A DNA stretch of 31,799 nt from a virus. Position numbers and translations under genes: made by a program. Under the pieces are notes generated by a model that ran no database searches, had not been told where the DNA came from, and was given only the letters and a program-made list of their open reading frames with translations. The DNA lies in the IMG/VR virus record IMGVR_UViG_3300042465_007579, positions 1-31,799 of that record; one strand, written 5' to 3'. Positions 10,414 to 19,077 of the stretch are shown piece by piece. How positions within the stretch are numbered: position 1 is the first letter of the stretch; each line of letters begins with the position of its first letter.

Positions 10414-11775
10414 TTAGAAAGGTTTTCTTCCGAAGCTGTCTCTTACGAGAGTCATACTTGTGAAGGTGTCTCTTGGTGTTATTCGATGGCACAAACTTGC
10501 TATCATATATATGCCACCAGTTTCCTTGTTGATATCCTTATTTAAAGATCCCTCAAGTTTTGGAAACTCACAGTGTATCAAGTCCCCTGCCCTTAAACTA
10601 AAATCTCCTGGTATAATGATATTAATTTTAATCAAAAACATTTGATTATATCTCATGATGGATTGAACCATCGTATTTGCAGCATCATATGTAGGATTAA
10701 AAGGAGTATTCTTCCAATTAGAAAGTTGCTCTCCAATATTTTTACCACGAGGAAGAGTTCCGACATCAAGAACATGACTCATTAATCTTGATACTGGTTT
10801 TCTAAATTCATCAGCAACGGATAAGATATCATCTCTACCACCTGTTACTATCTTATCTTTTTGATTATCATCAATAGTATACTCACGAACTCTGTAGTCC
10901 ATCGCAAAAAAATCAAAGAAAATACTACGGTTGGCATAAGTTCCAAGAGTCAGATTATTCTGAAGATCTATATCTTTATTGATTGTGTATGATAAAATTT
11001 TACCATCATATTCTTCTGGTTTATCTGCAGATTCTGTATAGATATATTTCTTTTTATATTTTTGATCAAACAGAGCATCGATAGATCTAAAGTTATATCC
11101 ATCATAAGTTTCATAGAAAAAATATCCAGCAGCACCACCAACTTCTCCAGATTTTTCTGGGACAGATTTAGATGCTAACCAAGTACACACATAAAAAGGT
11201 TTTCTATCATTACCAATAAACTGATAATTGATTGCAGTTTTATCTACTTTAACATCTTTTTTGGTTAATATTCCTTTTTCTTTAAACAAAGGTTCTTTAA
11301 GAATCTTTTCTACATTTTCTGATATTACTCCAGTATCATTTCCATATCTTTTGACTACTCTACTTTGTTCATTTGCAAAAAGTTCTCTAGAACAAAAGTC
11401 GAGAATATATACATCACTTTGAGTTTGAGGATCGGCGTTCCTTACTCTATTCACATATAGAGCATTATCTGCTTGAAATTTTAATTCGTTAGGAGTGTTC
11501 TGAGCATCTGCTATGGTTATGTTTACTTGCTCACCACCACGAATAGGTAAACCATCCAACACACCCACAGACTCTACAGGATTTCCATCATCTGTTGCCA
11601 CAAATCCACTTTCAGTAATGACTGCAGACATCGTAACAGAATTAGATAACACACTTTCATAGTATCTAAGATCACTAACTCCACCAGATAGATCCGCAGA
11701 CTCTCCAGTTTTTGTAGAAAAAACTCTAAACTTTAATATATTACCAGGAAGAGCTTGAAAATTATCTGCTGTCAT
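10414..11775 (-). CDS. Baseplate hub protein, gp27-like
   Basis: A 453-residue protein starting MTADNFQALPGNILKFRVF. Its C-terminal region carries the pattern GDFSLRAGDLIHCEFPKL then GGIYMIASLCHRITPRDTF, typical of hub proteins of the gp27/gpD type, where the hub ring meets the tail tube. The gene order (just upstream of gp5, downstream of the two large structural proteins) fits the hub role, since gp27 and gp5 form one complex in T4. The ATG overlaps the previous stop (TAATG). Divergence from T4 gp27 is large, so the name rests on C-terminal pattern and context. Confidence 0.6.
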   Translation of the reverse strand: MTADNFQALPGNILKFRVFSTKTGESADLSGGVSDLRYYESVLSNSVTMSAVITESGFVATDDGNPVESVGVLDGLPIRGGEQVNITIADAQNTPNELKFQADNALYVNRVRNADPQTQSDVYILDFCSRELFANEQSRVVKRYGNDTGVISENVEKILKEPLFKEKGILTKKDVKVDKTAINYQFIGNDRKPFYVCTWLASKSVPEKSGEVGGAAGYFFYETYDGYNFRSIDALFDQKYKKKYIYTESADKPEEYDGKILSYTINKDIDLQNNLTLGTYANRSIFFDFFAMDYRVREYTIDDNQKDKIVTGGRDDILSVADEFRKPVSRLMSHVLDVGTLPRGKNIGEQLSNWKNTPFNPTYDAANTMVQSIMRYNQMFLIKINIIIPGDFSLRAGDLIHCEFPKLEGSLNKDINKETGGIYMIASLCHRITPRDTFTSMTLVRDSFGRKPF

Positions 11776-14408
11776 TAACCTTGCTTGTAAAGGAATCCTA
11801 TCAACTGAGATTGATAATAGTTATTTAACATCTCTTGCTTTGACATAGAATAACCACCAGGTAGTGATGGTTGTCCTGTGGGTTGAGAACCACCACCAAT
11901 AGGAATGACTGTTGGTGGTAAAGGAACTAACCCAGATCTACCTGCTTGAGAAGATTGACTTATGGATTGAGTCATCATAGAAGACTTTGATGCTGCTGAT
12001 TGCTGAGGTGCTAATTGAGCAGTAGAGTCTTGGGATTTAGTATCTCTTCCTTTAAGCATCGCAGGTTCTGAAATTCTTGTTTCATTTTTATCTGTTGCTA
12101 CTTGACTTGACGCTGCCTGTTGCGCTACTGCATTTGATTGTTGTTGATTTTGTGCTAAAGATACTCCACCACTTAACCATTTTTTCCAGTGTTGTGGTGG
12201 ATTTGCTGGTGCTGGGTCGGTTACTTTTCTTTGAGAAGTATAATGATAAAAGTTTCCTCTTGGGTGGAACATCGGATCACCAGCACCTTTATTTTTAAGT
12301 TGCGACTGACCTTTAAAATCAGTTCTCCCATTCAGTACTTTAAGTGCTTCTATAATTTTTCCTTGATTTTGCTTTAATTTTTTAGCAAGAGCAGGATCTC
12401 TTCTAGCTAATCCTTTATAAACAGCTTCAAACTGGTCTGCTTGAGTTCCAACACCCATAATTGTGTTTGGCCAATTAGGATCTGCAACTCTCGTAAGAAC
12501 AGCAGCTGCGACTCCATATTCATCATCAGTTCCTCTTGCAGCTTCTCCACTAACAATATATGCAAGGTCACTCCAATCTTGCTCACTCATATTTTTTAGT
12601 GACCCTCCACCAGATCCCAAAGATGTTACAGTTCCTTGTGGAGTTGCTCCTTCAATTTGTGGAGATTCTGGTCTTCCACCTCTACCACCTTCAGTGTTCT
12701 CTAAGGGTTCCAGATCTGCAAGTTTTTCCTTAGGTGGATTCTTTGGCATATCAAAGAAAGAATTTTTAATATGCTTAAGGAATCCTAACGGATCTCTAAA
12801 CTGGAATGTTGGGTCTGGAAGTTGTGAAAGTTTACCTTTTTTATTTCCAAACCACTGATTATCTGCAACTATTTTAAACGGACTCCAAGGATGTCCACCA
12901 AGGAAATCCTGTAAACCTTTCATAGATCTCTTCCAACCAACACTCCATTCCAAAGCATTTTTTATAATACCAGGAAAACCTGGATTTGGAATCTTATACT
13001 TTGGCCAGTTATCAATATACTTTTTACTACCTCTCTTTACCCAATTCAGGGCAACACCACCAACATCTAATGCTTTCTTTATACCATTCCAAAGTTTAGT
13101 TTTGGCACCACTAATACCTTTACCTAAGATTAATTCATAAAAAATATCACCAACAAACTCACCAATAAACTCACCTAACATAGTTCCCAAAATAGGAATG
13201 GGAATAAAAGATCCAAGGGCACCACCAAGGGCAGCACCACCTGCTTTAAATAATGATTGATTAACTGGTTCACCAGCCATCAAAGAAGCAACACCAATAA
13301 GTATTGGACCTAAGATTGGTATTCTTCTGAAGAATCCTTTAGCAGCTATTGCTCCAGGTTTATTTAAAACATTTAGTCCCTTCCCTCTAGGTGTTGATGG
13401 TTTTAGTGTTGATGGTTTTGGTGCTGTTGCTTGACGGAAAGATCTTTTAGCCGCAGTCCCCACTGCTTTAGTTGCTCCTCTCAAACCCTGACCACCTCTA
13501 AGAGCACCTGCAGCTGCAGTCCCTGCTCTCAATCCAAATCTTGAACCACTAGCAACAGATTTAACAGATAAATTGACTACATTTTTAATAGAACTACCTA
13601 AAGCAGAAAAAGTAGTTGAAACTGCTTTACCAGTTAAATTAACAGATGCTTGAAGTGCTTTGGTTGGAAGATATAAAGGATTTAAAAGAGATTTTCCAGC
13701 AAAGCTTGCAAGAGCAGTGATTGGTTTTCTAAATCCGATTAATAATCTTGAGGCAAACTTCCAGTTGTTAGCAAGTCCGTTTTGAATATCATCTAAAATT
13801 TTAAAAACTTGCTGTTGATTTGTTAATAAGAAATCAGCTAAACCACCAAGTAATATATTCGAAAAGAAATTAATTACTCTATCAAGAAAACTAGGTGCTT
13901 GTATTCCTATACCACCCCTCTTTTCACTACTCTTTTCTTTTTTATCTTCCTCTAATTCATCTTCTCTTTGCTTCTTCTTCTCTTCAGAAACATCTTTCTT
14001 TTTATTTAAAAGTTTCTTATCATCAAATTTTTTCTTTTTACCTAAGATATCGGTTATGTTATTAATATTTTTTTGAATTGTTTCAATAACTTTTACGAGA
14101 GACTCTAAAGATCTTGGTTTGTTTTTCCCTACGTTTCCTTCAGTTATATCCTTTGATAATTGACCACCTCTTTCAGGCTTTTCTAATAATTTTTGAACTG
14201 ATATTGATCTCTTTTCTACTTTTACTAATGCACCACCACGACCTTTTTCTTCGTCGGTAGATATTGTCTTTTTAGCATCCTTTTTAATCTTATCCTTTCC
14301 ACCACCAAGCAATTTATCTTTTGCTATACTTTTTCCAGCAGATATTAAAGCACCTCTTGATGTGCCTGCCGTTAATAATCTTGCTGCTGCTAAAAGTGGT
14401 AGTGCCAT
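11775..14408 (-). CDS. Large structural protein with SleB-like hydrolase domain
   Basis: 877 residues. The N-terminus is Lys/Glu-rich and coiled-coil-like to about 165. Residues about 170-240 (FLDRVINFFSNILLGGLADF) match the equivalent region of the next protein, and a long Gly/Ala/Leu-rich, membrane- or tape-measure-like part follows to about 450. Residues about 605-745 form a cell-wall hydrolase domain of the SleB/CwlJ (Hydrolase_2) type: SGEAARG with the likely catalytic Glu, VAAAVLTRVADPNWPNTI, QFEAVYKG, LNGRTDF and DPMFHPRGNFYH. The C-terminus is Gln/Ser-rich. It overlaps both neighbours by 1 nt (TAATG). It is probably a tail/baseplate protein that also opens peptidoglycan at infection. 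Confidence 0.7.
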   Translation of the reverse strand: MALPLLAAARLLTAGTSRGALISAGKSIAKDKLLGGGKDKIKKDAKKTISTDEEKGRGGALVKVEKRSISVQKLLEKPERGGQLSKDITEGNVGKNKPRSLESLVKVIETIQKNINNITDILGKKKKFDDKKLLNKKKDVSEEKKKQREDELEEDKKEKSSEKRGGIGIQAPSFLDRVINFFSNILLGGLADFLLTNQQQVFKILDDIQNGLANNWKFASRLLIGFRKPITALASFAGKSLLNPLYLPTKALQASVNLTGKAVSTTFSALGSSIKNVVNLSVKSVASGSRFGLRAGTAAAGALRGGQGLRGATKAVGTAAKRSFRQATAPKPSTLKPSTPRGKGLNVLNKPGAIAAKGFFRRIPILGPILIGVASLMAGEPVNQSLFKAGGAALGGALGSFIPIPILGTMLGEFIGEFVGDIFYELILGKGISGAKTKLWNGIKKALDVGGVALNWVKRGSKKYIDNWPKYKIPNPGFPGIIKNALEWSVGWKRSMKGLQDFLGGHPWSPFKIVADNQWFGNKKGKLSQLPDPTFQFRDPLGFLKHIKNSFFDMPKNPPKEKLADLEPLENTEGGRGGRPESPQIEGATPQGTVTSLGSGGGSLKNMSEQDWSDLAYIVSGEAARGTDDEYGVAAAVLTRVADPNWPNTIMGVGTQADQFEAVYKGLARRDPALAKKLKQNQGKIIEALKVLNGRTDFKGQSQLKNKGAGDPMFHPRGNFYHYTSQRKVTDPAPANPPQHWKKWLSGGVSLAQNQQQSNAVAQQAASSQVATDKNETRISEPAMLKGRDTKSQDSTAQLAPQQSAASKSSMMTQSISQSSQAGRSGLVPLPPTVIPIGGGSQPTGQPSLPGGYSMSKQEMLNNYYQSQLIGFLYKQG

Positions 14409-16864
14409 TATCCGATTAAGTTATAGATGGATCTAATGACCAAGTTAGTGACATTAAAAGGATCTTCAGATGAAAAAGAAGGAACTGGAGCTTGTCCAGG
14501 AGTGCTCACTGTAGCAGAATTATTTGGTATAATATTCTGCATTATATTAGATACTCCATTAATAGTTTGATAATCTCCATAAAGAGTCTTTAGTTGATCC
14601 AAAGGAACAAAGTGTTCATCTGGAGTAAGATCAATAGTAGCAGGAGGAGTTGTTTCCATACCAGAACTTGATTGTCCAGGAGATTCTCCTGATGCAGAAC
14701 TTGTAGATCCAAAAGTAGGTTTTCCTGAGGTAATAAAGTTTACAAATGCTTCGTGTCCTGCCGGGTTTGCATCGATATGTAAGTGATCTACATAGTTACC
14801 ACCAGTTTTTCCTTGAGTTCCTATAATTGTTCCTGCCTTTATTTTATCCCCAACCTTAAAGTTGCCAAATTTGCTCAAGTGCCCAAACAACATATTTCCT
14901 GTTTGGTTCTTAACTACAACAGTATTCCCATATCCACCAGCAGGTGCTTTAAAAATTACTTCAGATTCTAAAGGTACGGGAATATCGGCATTTGGTGAGG
15001 ATGCAAGATTAGTTCCATGTAAGAGGGTATAATCCCTAGGGTATCCATCAGTTCTCTTTGTATTGGAACCACTATGGTGAGATCTTAAGTCAGAATATTT
15101 GTATGTTTGTCCTGGATTAAGTATTTTATTTCCACCACCATTACTACTAAAATACTTAATCTTTCCAGCATACCCACCACTGGACATAGTTTGAATATCA
15201 CCAAGTGCAGCCATTCCTGGTTTGTTTGCACCAGGTCCACCATAAAAACTATTAAGGGTTAGTAGATTCTCTACACCAACGGAATCAGCTGCTGCCTTAT
15301 TAATCATAACTTCACCAGGTTGAGCAGCAATCAGTTGCGTGTCTTTTCCAAGACCAGCAATTCTAATGCCAGAATCTGGAGTAATTGGACCACCTCCTTT
15401 GAAACTAATCTGATTCACATGAACAACTTGTCCACCTGTAGTTTGTGTTTGGACTGGTTGAGCAAAAGTTGCTAGAGGTATTCTTGGAAGATTAGGTACG
15501 TTTGGAAGTTGCGGTGCTTGAATTGGAGTATGTCTATAAATCCAACTTGGTATTCTTGAAAGATTATTGTTCACTCCATTAACAAAATTTTTAATACTAT
15601 TGTTTATAGAGTTAATAACATTTCTTAGAGGTTGTATTAGAGTATTATCAATCCAAGTAATAATATTATTAAAAAATCCAATAATGTTATTGACTAAATC
15701 TTGAAGTGGCTTTAACAGTATCTGAGGATCGTTTATAACATTAAGAAGAAATTCAATTGCCCCACCAGTTAAGATGGACAAAAAGAATTGCTTTACTCTA
15801 TCAAAAAAACTAATAAAAGGTTTTTGAACTTTTTCAAGTGCCTTATCAAATATACCACTACTTCTTTTTGATTCTAGCTTTGCTTCCCTTGCTTTCTTTT
15901 TCTTTTTTTCTTTATCTCTTCTGTCTAACTCTGCTTCCCTTTGCTCAGTTTTACTTTGATTTTGAAGAAAAGTTCTTATTGTGATCAAAGATTCTAAGAT
16001 GTTACCGATTCCATCCAGTAAATCTTCTTGAAGTTTTCCAGAGTCAACTTTAGATTTTTGATCTTGATCTGGAAATATATCAGAAACTGAGGGTATAAGT
16101 TTCTGTGCTTTTACAATTGCACTAGAAGGTGCTGGTTGTTTACGATCCAATACTTTATTGATATCAACCTTCTTAGGTTTGACTATAAACCTACCTGTCT
16201 TTCCTTTTACTCTCTTAAGTTCTGCAGTGACTAACTCTATGGTCCCAGTAGACATCTGGGAACCAGGCATTCTACCCGCAGCAGCTGCAGTTCTTAACTC
16301 TCTATAATATTCCTCATAAGTTAAGTCAAAGACATCTTCCAACCCTAAGATGGAAAGAATCTGAGGATCTATATCTTCTTCTACAAAATCATCTAATTTT
16401 TTGGGAGAAACAGCAAGTGCTGAAGATGAAGGTGGTCGTGGGGAAGATCTTCTTCCAGCACCAGCACCAACTTCTACTGCACTTTCTTCTCTAATAAGAT
16501 TTAAAAGTTCATCCAGTCCCTCTGGACCGAGTTCTTCTTCAAGTTGTTTAGTTGCTTCTTTTTTTCTGCTTTCAAATCCTTCTTCTCTAGCCTTAGTTAA
16601 ATATCTTGCAACTAACCATCTTTGATATTCTTCTGCTTTATCTGGAGCATTTGCTTCATCAAATATAGGAATACCTTCAGGATCTTTTTTTATATTACTT
16701 ATTACTTCATCTGCTTCTTTATCAGACAACCTGACATAGGAAGTTTTCCTAGAAGCACCAGGGTAATCCTTGCCAGTTAATTGGGCTCTAAAAGAATTCC
16801 ATCCTCTCTCACCAAGTGGAGTATTATACCATTTTACTATTCCTGATGGTGGATTAAGAGCCAT
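14408..16864 (-). CDS. Large structural protein with M23-like peptidase domain
   Basis: 818 residues. After an N-terminal charged region, a Lys/Glu-rich coiled coil (REAELDRRDKEKKKKK) leads into FISFFDRVKQFFLSILTGGA, equivalent to the segment in the 877-aa neighbour. Hydrophobic repeats with NNI/INSINN follow. Residues about 590-715 resemble an M23 (lysostaphin-like) peptidase: GGYGNTVVV, GNMLFGHLSKFGNFKVGDKI, AGTIIGTQGKTGG and DHLHIDA with the HxH zinc pair. The usual upstream HxxxD zinc site is not clear (LLHGTNL is the candidate). It is probably a tail protein acting on the wall; activity is uncertain. Overlaps neighbours by 1 and 11 nt. Confidence 0.65.
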   Translation of the reverse strand: MALNPPSGIVKWYNTPLGERGWNSFRAQLTGKDYPGASRKTSYVRLSDKEADEVISNIKKDPEGIPIFDEANAPDKAEEYQRWLVARYLTKAREEGFESRKKEATKQLEEELGPEGLDELLNLIREESAVEVGAGAGRRSSPRPPSSSALAVSPKKLDDFVEEDIDPQILSILGLEDVFDLTYEEYYRELRTAAAAGRMPGSQMSTGTIELVTAELKRVKGKTGRFIVKPKKVDINKVLDRKQPAPSSAIVKAQKLIPSVSDIFPDQDQKSKVDSGKLQEDLLDGIGNILESLITIRTFLQNQSKTEQREAELDRRDKEKKKKKAREAKLESKRSSGIFDKALEKVQKPFISFFDRVKQFFLSILTGGAIEFLLNVINDPQILLKPLQDLVNNIIGFFNNIITWIDNTLIQPLRNVINSINNSIKNFVNGVNNNLSRIPSWIYRHTPIQAPQLPNVPNLPRIPLATFAQPVQTQTTGGQVVHVNQISFKGGGPITPDSGIRIAGLGKDTQLIAAQPGEVMINKAAADSVGVENLLTLNSFYGGPGANKPGMAALGDIQTMSSGGYAGKIKYFSSNGGGNKILNPGQTYKYSDLRSHHSGSNTKRTDGYPRDYTLLHGTNLASSPNADIPVPLESEVIFKAPAGGYGNTVVVKNQTGNMLFGHLSKFGNFKVGDKIKAGTIIGTQGKTGGNYVDHLHIDANPAGHEAFVNFITSGKPTFGSTSSASGESPGQSSSGMETTPPATIDLTPDEHFVPLDQLKTLYGDYQTINGVSNIMQNIIPNNSATVSTPGQAPVPSFSSEDPFNVTNLVIRSIYNLIG

Positions 16865-17030
16865 TCTGTTGCAGTCTTAGTTTTTCATCTTCCAGATGTT
16901 GTTGTAACAAACCAATATAGATATCTCGCTCCCAAGGAATCAAGTTTTCAACTTCTGTTAATGAATATTTATGGAACTGCATCAAGGCAAAGTTAATCTT
17001 GTAGTAGTTCTCAAGGTCCATATGGACCAT
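16854..17030 (-). CDS. Small tail chaperone-like ORF, -1 frame of gp26
   Basis: A 58-residue ORF (MVHMDLENYYKINFALMQFH, then KYSLTEVENLIPWERDIYIG) of a type found after gp26 in T4-like cyanophages. It resembles the short T part of tail assembly chaperones: helical, aromatic, with a conserved PWER segment. It can start at 17030 or at the ATG at 17021; neither has a good Shine-Dalgarno. Importantly its frame is reached from gp26 by a -1 shift at the slippery site 17045-17039, with CGC ATA AGC joining the two. It ends 11 nt inside the next gene. In T4 terms it could be part of hub assembly; I give no gene number. Confidence 0.75.
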   Translation of the reverse strand: MVHMDLENYYKINFALMQFHKYSLTEVENLIPWERDIYIGLLQQHLEDEKLRLQQNGS

Positions 17031-17045
17031 GCTTATGCGAAAAAA
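17015..17045 (-). promoter_or_regulatory. Putative programmed -1 ribosomal frameshift site
   Basis: On the minus strand the heptamer T TTT TTC (17045-17039) is in the gp26 zero frame as X XXY YYZ, two codons before the gp26 TAA stop. After a 10-nt spacer lies the perfect palindrome GGTCCATATGGACC (17028-17015), able to form a stem-loop. A -1 shift continues with no stop into the 58-aa ORF and would give a fusion of about 299 residues. Confidence 0.65.
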
Positions 17046-17752
17046 CTCGATAACCCTTCTAATACTACTGTATTTTCTACCTTTGTTTTTGGATTAGTAA
17101 ACTTAATCTCATGAGATAACTTAGGCATAGTATCAAAGAATTTCTCAATTTCTTTGAATTGAATACTATTCATCTGCTCTAAAAAGTCTACCAGTTCTTT
17201 TTTAGTTACATCAGCAGCAACCCACACTTCTTCGGCACTATAAATCTTATCGATACATGAAGAGATTAAATCAAAAGATTCATCCAATCCCACATTTCCC
17301 GAAAAATCAAAGTTATTCTTGATAAACTGATCAAGTGATGGATACTTCATCTCCATCATCAGATTGTCATCGAGTTTAATCTTATTTGTATGTTCTTCAG
17401 ACTTATGAACCTTAATTTCGTCAATATCAATTGTCACTGGAACTGATGTTTCACCGTCATCAGGTGCAATTAAATTAACCTCAATTTGTTCACCTACAGA
17501 TTTTCCTCTAATATTTAAGAACAAGTATTCAATATCAAAGGTAGGAAGTGCTTCTACTTTAACCGATTTTGTTTGAATGCAATTTTTTAAAACTGTCTTA
17601 ATTGCATTTGAAATTTCTTTACTATTTTCAGTTTCAAGAGCAAGAACAAGAAGTTTCTCTTCTTTGACTAAAAATGGTCTATACTTGATTGGTTTTCCAG
17701 TAGATGGCAACTCAAGTTCATAAGTTGGCGTTACAATTGTTGGTAAAGGCAT
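17033..17752 (-). CDS. 26: Baseplate hub/tail assembly protein gp26-like
   Basis: A 239-residue protein starting MPLPTIVTPTYELELPSTGK, followed by IKYRPFLVKEEKLLVLALET and FDIEYLFLNIRGKSVGE, the pattern of the T4 gp26 baseplate family. In T4 gp26 is a minor baseplate hub protein. Its position (before a small -1 frame ORF and then very long coiled-coil/hydrophobic structural proteins) is that of tail assembly chaperone G in lambda. A late motif lies 27 bp upstream, overlapping the gp54 stop region. The C-terminus ends SSFFA at the slippery site. Confidence 0.8.
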   Translation of the reverse strand: MPLPTIVTPTYELELPSTGKPIKYRPFLVKEEKLLVLALETENSKEISNAIKTVLKNCIQTKSVKVEALPTFDIEYLFLNIRGKSVGEQIEVNLIAPDDGETSVPVTIDIDEIKVHKSEEHTNKIKLDDNLMMEMKYPSLDQFIKNNFDFSGNVGLDESFDLISSCIDKIYSAEEVWVAADVTKKELVDFLEQMNSIQFKEIEKFFDTMPKLSHEIKFTNPKTKVENTVVLEGLSSFFA

Positions 17753-17778: not shown

Positions 17779-17788
17779 TTATTTATTA
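17779..17788 (-). promoter_or_regulatory. Late promoter motif upstream of gp26
   Basis: On the minus strand TAATAAATAA, with the TAAATA core starting inside the gp54 stop region and lying about 27 bp upstream of the gp26 ATG at 17752. It would drive the gp26-to-6048 operon. Confidence 0.6.
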
Positions 17789-18598
17789 TGCCACACCAGG
17801 ATTAAGAACTCCAGTTAAACCTGGTATTCCTTCACCAAGAGGAAGTGGTTGTCCATTTATATCTCTTATAACTGGACTAAATGGTACAGTTGGAATATTT
17901 ACAGTAATTTCTTCTTCTACTGGTGGTTGGGGAACTCCAGGTGGTGTTGTTGGAACTGGTTCTGGAGTATCGGAAACGGGATCAAATCCTCTGCTTGCTA
18001 TGTATCTAATGAATGAGAATGAAACATTACATTTTAAAATTTGACTTTGATCATAAGAAACTGGCATCGCAGTTATGCTAGTAGGAAACCCATGAACAAA
18101 AGTATAATCTAATGTTTTGGTAGATCCATTATAATGATGATCCTTTTCAAACTTTGTTAAATAAAAGTTAACCTTATAATCATTTGCATATGCAACTCTA
18201 TGGTTGACATAAGGACTTTCAAATCTTTGCCTATCAATAACACCAGTAATATAATCTATCCAACTCTCAAAAAAATCTACAACTTTATATTCTCTATCAA
18301 CATAAAATGTCATATCAGCAGTTTCATCATAAATTCTGCGATATACCATCTTCTCACTAACTCCATGGTAATCATTCGTTACATCATGAGTTGCTAAAGA
18401 TGAACCAGGAAGGTTTGCTTCAGAACACAATAAAGAAATGTTATCAACATCAAAGGACGTAATACCTCTGCTAGAAGCAAGAGATGATACTTTTGATGGA
18501 ACAGGGATAGTTAAACGATATAAAGAAGTTTGTGCAAGGTTGAGTAACCTTGATTTGATATCACTTGTTCGTAAGTTTTCTGGGCGGATACCAGCCAT
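17786..18598 (-). CDS. 54: Baseplate tail tube initiator gp54-like
   Basis: 270 residues starting MAGIRPENLRTSDIKSRLLN. It shows the tube-like fold pattern shared by T4 gp19, gp48 and gp54: NISLLCSEANLPGSSLATHD, YRRIYDETADMTFYVDREYK, FFESWIDYITG and YTFVHGFPTSITAMPVSYD. A Pro-rich tail (residues about 212-235) follows and is unusual. In T4, gp54 sits with gp48 on the baseplate and starts tube polymerisation. The gene is divergent from gp4 with 32 bp between starts; I see no clear late motif on its own strand in that gap. gp54 is favoured over gp48 because the better gp48 match is at 19535. Confidence 0.7.
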   Translation of the reverse strand: MAGIRPENLRTSDIKSRLLNLAQTSLYRLTIPVPSKVSSLASSRGITSFDVDNISLLCSEANLPGSSLATHDVTNDYHGVSEKMVYRRIYDETADMTFYVDREYKVVDFFESWIDYITGVIDRQRFESPYVNHRVAYANDYKVNFYLTKFEKDHHYNGSTKTLDYTFVHGFPTSITAMPVSYDQSQILKCNVSFSFIRYIASRGFDPVSDTPEPVPTTPPGVPQPPVEEEITVNIPTVPFSPVIRDINGQPLPLGEGIPGLTGVLNPGVA

Positions 18599-18599
18599 C

Positions 18600-18610
18600 T
18601 ATAAATACTT
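18600..18610 (+). promoter_or_regulatory. T4-consensus late promoter for gp4
   Basis: TATAAATACTT on the plus strand is a full match to the T4 late promoter core TATAAATA, 24 bp upstream of the gp4 ATG at 18631. It lies in the short divergent gap next to gp54. Confidence 0.85.
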
Positions 18611-18630
18611 CTACCGATATATTATGTATA

Positions 18631-19077
18631 ATGGCAGAAAGCATTAAGAGTCGTTATAAACCAGAGTATCCAAAAAAGTATAAAGGCGATCCCAATAATA
18701 TCATCTGTCGTAGTAGTTGGGAAAGAAAATTTTGTCGGTGGTGTGATTTAAATGAAAGCATTTTAGAGTGGGGTTCTGAAGAATTCTTTATTCCATACTT
18801 TGATCCAACAACAAGTAGAGTCAGAAGATACTTCCCAGATTTTATTATCAAAGTTCGTGAGCAATCTGGAGAGATTAAAAAGTATGTGATTGAAATCAAA
18901 CCCAAAAGACAGACGATGCCACCTGTACAGTCAAGTAAAAAAAGAACAAGGACTTATATTAATGAAGTCAAAACTTATGCAGTGAATGAGGCAAAATGGA
19001 AGGCTGCAAAAGAATGGTGTGCAGATAGAATGCTTGAGTTCCGTATCATAACAGAAAACGAATTAGGTATCGGTTAA
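18631..19077 (+). CDS. 4: Head completion protein gp4-like
   Basis: 148 residues from the ATG at 18631 (MAESIKSRYKPEYPKKYKGD). It matches T4 gp4 (gp50/65): NIICRSSWERKFCRWCDLNE, ILEWGSEEFFIPYFDP, RRYFPDFIIK, YVIEIKPKRQTMPPV and NEAKWKAAKEWCADR. gp4 stabilises the DNA-filled head and prepares it for tail joining; its fold is nuclease-like, with DF..K and EIKPK standing where a D-ExK site would be. I rejected a longer frame starting at 18565 because it overlaps the gp54 start and the promoter. The stop overlaps the next ATG (TAATG). Confidence 0.9.
   Translation: MAESIKSRYKPEYPKKYKGDPNNIICRSSWERKFCRWCDLNESILEWGSEEFFIPYFDPTTSRVRRYFPDFIIKVREQSGEIKKYVIEIKPKRQTMPPVQSSKKRTRTYINEVKTYAVNEAKWKAAKEWCADRMLEFRIITENELGIG

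Follow-up and report, generated by a model that had tools for sequence, protein, structure and literature searches.

Phage lambda makes a short tail protein, gpG, and an extended form, gpGT, by a -1 frameshift at the slippery site G GGA AAG, which lies near the 3' end of the first ORF. In E. coli dnaX, the slippery heptamer A AAA AAG is accompanied by an internal SD about 10 nt upstream and by a downstream structure, and the frameshift product is the shorter of the two proteins. Frameshifting of the G-T type was described in a 2016 review as conserved among long-tailed phages "except T4" (PMC5009743). In T4 itself, gp26 and gp51 are regarded as hub assembly chaperones, and gp51 is needed but is not in the particle (PMC3004832).

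A later paper (PMC10885494) describes some T4-like phages in which frameshifting is replaced by a short gene plus a fused long gene. Another paper (PMC12846349) mentions poly-T frameshift signals in the TAC-N genes of T4-like phages, citing Vladimirov, Gautam and Davidson 2022 (Virology 566:9); as far as the citing papers convey its content, that work apparently concerned the same genes as those treated here. In Pseudomonas phage Adele and the Vandenendeviridae, a short and a long chaperone are produced through a conserved -1 frameshift with a poly-T motif near the 3' end, but the motif is GTTTTT rather than T TTT TTC and the phages belong to a different family (PMC12846349). This kind of system is therefore already known, from lambda and reportedly from further T4-like phages. 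The features that may be new are the extent of its conservation in marine phages, the SD-like element, the structured RNA downstream and the absent start codons.

The gp26 junction and its neighbours

The window (the whole 31,799-nt stretch of viral DNA that was analyzed) encodes on its minus strand a 239-aa, TAC-N-like homolog of gp26 at 17033..17752, which ends in SSFFA and matches PF12322 (E=1.7e-74) and phrog_150, "baseplate hub" (E=7.6e-79). It is followed on the same strand by a 58-aa ORF at 16854..17030 that matches phrog_634, "baseplate hub assembly catalyst" (E=1.3e-25), and aligns with the C-terminus of T4 gp51. These profile matches place the two ORFs in the T4 gp26/gp51 family. The small ORF also matches the C-terminal columns 240-281 of phrog_150, which indicates that in-frame fusions of the two parts exist within that family.

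The preceding gene (17786..18598, minus strand) encodes a tail-tube family protein (PF23849, E=1.7e-15; phrog_45 "tail tube", E=8e-36). The next gene (14408..16864, minus strand) encodes an 818-aa protein with an M23 peptidase domain near residues 616-700 (PF01551, E=2.6e-13). This protein is likely of the tape-measure type, having weak matches to several tape-measure PHROGs (phrog_58, E=6.8e-5; phrog_1535, E=1.2e-4), and in Cr30 the tape measure is annotated two genes downstream. The locus encoding the short and long forms is thus placed after a tail tube gene and, going by these weak matches, before a tape-measure-like gene, as lambda G and GT lie between the tail tube and tape measure genes.

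On the minus strand the junction between the two ORFs reads GAA GGG TTA TCG AGT TTT TTC GCA TAA GC ATG GTC CAT ATG GAC C. An earlier note on this DNA, made from the letters alone, had proposed a programmed -1 frameshift at a T TTT TTC heptamer in the gp26 frame, and this heptamer is present at 17039..17045 on the minus strand. The 0-frame TAA stop (17033..17035, minus strand) follows after exactly one codon, GCA, and not two codons later as the note had counted. Shifted by one base, the reading TTT TTT CGC ATA AGC ATG GTC continues without a stop into the ORF at 17030-16854, so that the conceptual gp26-gp51 fusion has 299 aa, as had been predicted. The open stretch of the -1 frame begins 58 nt before the gp26 stop. 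XXXYYYZ heptamers occur in frame 24 times in 13 minus-strand ORFs of the window, and of these only the one at this junction lies no more than 100 nt from an ORF end.

We propose that gp26 and the small ORF very probably constitute one gene that is read through a -1 ribosomal frameshift at the end of gp26, the 58-aa ORF being the C-terminal part of the fusion. Most ribosomes would finish the 239-aa gp26, while a minority would pause at T TTT TTC, where the two tRNA-Phe could slip back one base, re-pair and carry translation onward in the -1 frame to give the 299-aa gp26-gp51 protein. The slip would be favoured by an SD-like element some 10 nt upstream and by RNA structure that begins just downstream. 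The short and long proteins would then serve as tail (hub) assembly chaperones for the adjoining tape measure, like lambda G and GT. The sequences themselves show the conservation, the frame relation, selection on the signals and, in many relatives, the absence of any other start; slippage in the cell, the ratio of short to long protein and the chaperone role are the steps of this scheme that we infer.

Conservation of the heptamer and absence of start codons

Relatives were gathered from IMG/VR and from annotated phages (T4, cyanophages, and Pelagibacter, Sinorhizobium, Rhizobium, Ochrobactrum, Caulobacter, Vibrio, Aeromonas, Stenotrophomonas and Pseudomonas phages), giving 226 unique junctions. 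An in-frame heptamer is found in 212 of the 226, as T TTT TTC in 196 and as T TTT TTT in 16, these being counts of related sequences and not of independent events. In all 212 one-gene junctions, T TTT TT[C/T] lies in the gp26 frame close to its stop, and the -1 frame holds a gp51 homolog. The Synechococcus cyanophage S-PM2 shares the site of the window. The distance from heptamer to stop is 0, 1, 2 or 8 codons, and the one-codon spacing of the window recurs in 177 of the 212. Since the proteins diverge down to about 24-30% identity, chance or simple descent is an unlikely cause of this conservation. The heptamer, the frame relation and the open -1 reading are thus universal among the one-gene T4-like junctions, which supports the programmed frameshift that the earlier note had put forward.

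The 0-frame stop lies eight codons past the heptamer, rather than one, in the Pelagibacter phage Mosig and 14 other junctions, which lengthens the tail of the short protein in some members of the Mosig-like group. The 14 junctions without the heptamer comprise 12 of the T4 type, in which the short and long forms are separate genes, and those of two Vibrio phages, VP-1 and D506. In these two, the stop of the gp26 homolog overlaps a start codon as TAATG, and a canonical heptamer is lacking. VP-1 carries GTTTTTC, a sequence similar to the GTTTTT motif described in Vandenendeviridae, and both phages may rely on a different mechanism.

Thinning the junctions to less than 80% nucleotide identity in the flanks left 126 representatives, and none of them departs from the others at heptamer positions 1-6. 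The invariant bases include the T at each of the two wobble positions, 1 and 4. Other nearby third positions have entropies of 1.1-1.9 bits in the same set. The codon before the Phe pair varies, encoding Ser (AGT/TCT), Asp, Asn, Ala, Gly or Thr, yet its last base is always T. The second Phe is encoded by TTC in 92% of cases, compared with 26% TTC among upstream Phe codons. An in-phase X XXY YYZ heptamer is thus kept beyond what the protein requires, both in presence (212/212) and in the wobble bases of the 126 representatives.

A homopolymer run at the junction could also point to slippage of RNA polymerase on the T run, with the frame change arising in the transcript and not on the ribosome. 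Transcriptional slippage usually requires longer runs, while the run here is only six T in 196 of the 212 relatives and is interrupted by C at its 3' end. Both the codon-phased conservation of wobble bases and the SD-like element agree with an event on the ribosome, and we consider a transcriptional origin of the frame change extremely improbable.

The small ORF in the window has its own ATG at 17030, and TAA-GC-ATG forms a close stop/start pair. Most annotations treat gp51 as a gene in its own right, and both observations would be expected if gp51 were a separate gene translated by termination-reinitiation, with ribosomes stopping at TAA and restarting at the ATG two bases on, and with the T run doing no more than encoding Phe-Phe. 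Among the relatives, however, 87 of the 212 have no ATG in the first 12 codons of the -1 extension or upstream in that frame, and 76 of the 212 have none of ATG, GTG or TTG there. In these start-less extensions, codon positions 1 and 2 are conserved and the third varies, as expected for constraint on a protein. Constrained in this way and with no start codon, the extension in those 76 can be expressed by a frameshift only. An early ATG is present in 125 junctions, but an SD motif precedes it in only 8. Moreover, Phe-Phe coding leaves unexplained both the invariant wobble bases and the constant T that ends the varying preceding codons. Reinitiation at a separate gp51 is thus highly improbable in our estimation, and the ribosomal frameshift is the reading that we carry forward.

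Among deposited annotations, gp51 is omitted in ACG-2014d, Syn10 and S-H9-1, and its annotated start in Mosig and phiAS5 is a late internal codon. These omissions and late starts are consistent with gp51 having no start codon of its own.

Stimulatory elements around the slippery site

The signal is accompanied by an upstream SD-like element that the earlier note had missed. When the tetramers GGAG, GAGG and AGGA were counted in the 212 relatives and compared with synonymous resampling, those starting -15 nt from the heptamer were observed 61 times (13 expected) and those starting at -14 nt 111 times (48 expected). The window has a weaker variant, GAAGGG, at 17054..17059 on the minus strand, in a dnaX-like arrangement. 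The combination of SD, slippery heptamer and downstream structure is shared with E. coli dnaX, and the SD spacing of dnaX matches the -15/-14 peak of the relatives, although dnaX is an unrelated gene with the heptamer A AAA AAG and a frameshift product that is shorter. The lambda locus is likened to this one by its layout, of a short protein with a -1 frameshift extension and a heptamer near the 3' end of the first ORF. It differs in its slippery site, which here is T TTT TTC, and in the present group an SD-like element upstream is under selection.

Downstream, the 60 nt past the heptamer have a mean z of -1.87 (se 0.16) relative to codon-resampled sequences, which is the strongest signal of any 60-nt stretch scanned; the others gave z between 0.2 and -1.2. 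In the window, this region (16979..17038, minus strand) has an MFE of -13.1 kcal/mol, and in the MFE fold a GCAU...AUGC closing stem encloses a 5-bp hairpin with an AUAU loop. The hairpin is formed by the palindrome GGTCCATATGGACC (17015..17028, minus strand), which starts 10 nt past the heptamer, where the earlier note had placed it. These comparisons with resampled sequences give statistical support for selection on both the upstream SD-like GAGG and the excess of downstream RNA structure.

The earlier note had named loss of the heptamer or of the frame relation in relatives as grounds for refutation, and its idea passed this test, both being kept in 212 of 212. The palindrome is limited to one clade. 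All five pairs of the palindrome are possible in 50 of 166 relatives, against 17 expected, mainly in the clade of the window, and the pairing fades outside it. The palindrome was accordingly rejected as a universal stimulator, but it does belong to a wider structured region. RNAalifold over 95 representatives gave no common fold, and no Rfam match was found.

Relation to T4 and role of the short and long proteins

T4 gp26 and gp51 belong to the same protein family as the products of the window, but T4 has two genes and lacks the heptamer. Both T4 proteins match PF12322/phrog_150, and the phrog_634 C-terminus is found in gp51 only. The two T4 genes are separate and divergently oriented. In the alignment, T4 gp26 ends at the conserved FF that corresponds to the frameshift site of the other phages, while T4 gp51 runs through the junction in one frame, like the frameshift product. 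This indicates that T4 uses two genes for its short and long forms. A short and a long protein with a common N-terminal domain would thus be supplied by frameshifting here and are supplied by gp26 and gp51 in T4.

We lean toward the view that a dnaX-like cassette (SD, U UUU UUC and downstream structure) is ancestral and near-universal for the T4-like chaperone pair, and that it disappeared from the T-even lineage as a gene duplication separated the two forms. If so, gp51 would be no independent gene in marine T4-like phages, and published gp51 annotations there would be wrong.

Homology to T4 gp26/gp51, gene order and the literature, rather than structure, indicate that the short and long proteins are probably tail assembly chaperones. 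Structures were predicted for gp26 alone (pLDDT 87) and for an in-frame long form of the T4 type (pLDDT 90). None of the solved tail assembly chaperones was matched significantly by fold, HK97 2ob9 being found at E=1.9 with a probability of 0.15, and there were no significant sequence relatives in the PDB. This lack of a structural match to solved chaperones, the "baseplate hub" annotation of gp26 and its placement in the hub by older genetics (PMC3004832) would agree with a real frameshift whose product is a structural hub protein and not a chaperone. Such a role is nonetheless unlikely in our view. The same source lists T4 gp26 and gp51 as hub assembly chaperones, with gp51 required but absent from the virion (PMC3004832), and the gene order of tail tube, short form, long form and tape-measure-like protein is that of lambda V-G-T-H.

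Reading gp26 and the small ORF as a frameshift-encoded chaperone pair would connect tail assembly in T4-like phages with the lambda G/GT scheme and would explain the T4 exception by gene duplication. It would also correct a common annotation error in the T4-like phages examined, in which gp51 is listed separately, begun late internally or omitted. The heptamer would offer an easy and specific handle on how the ratio of short to long protein affects tail assembly in abundant marine phages.

Two further genes in this part of the window have recognizable domains. The protein encoded at 11775-14408, next after the tape-measure-like protein, has a cell-wall hydrolase domain, and a head-closure (gp4-like) protein encoded at 18565-19077 (+) matches the TnsA-like endonuclease N-terminal family PF08722 (E=7e-23).
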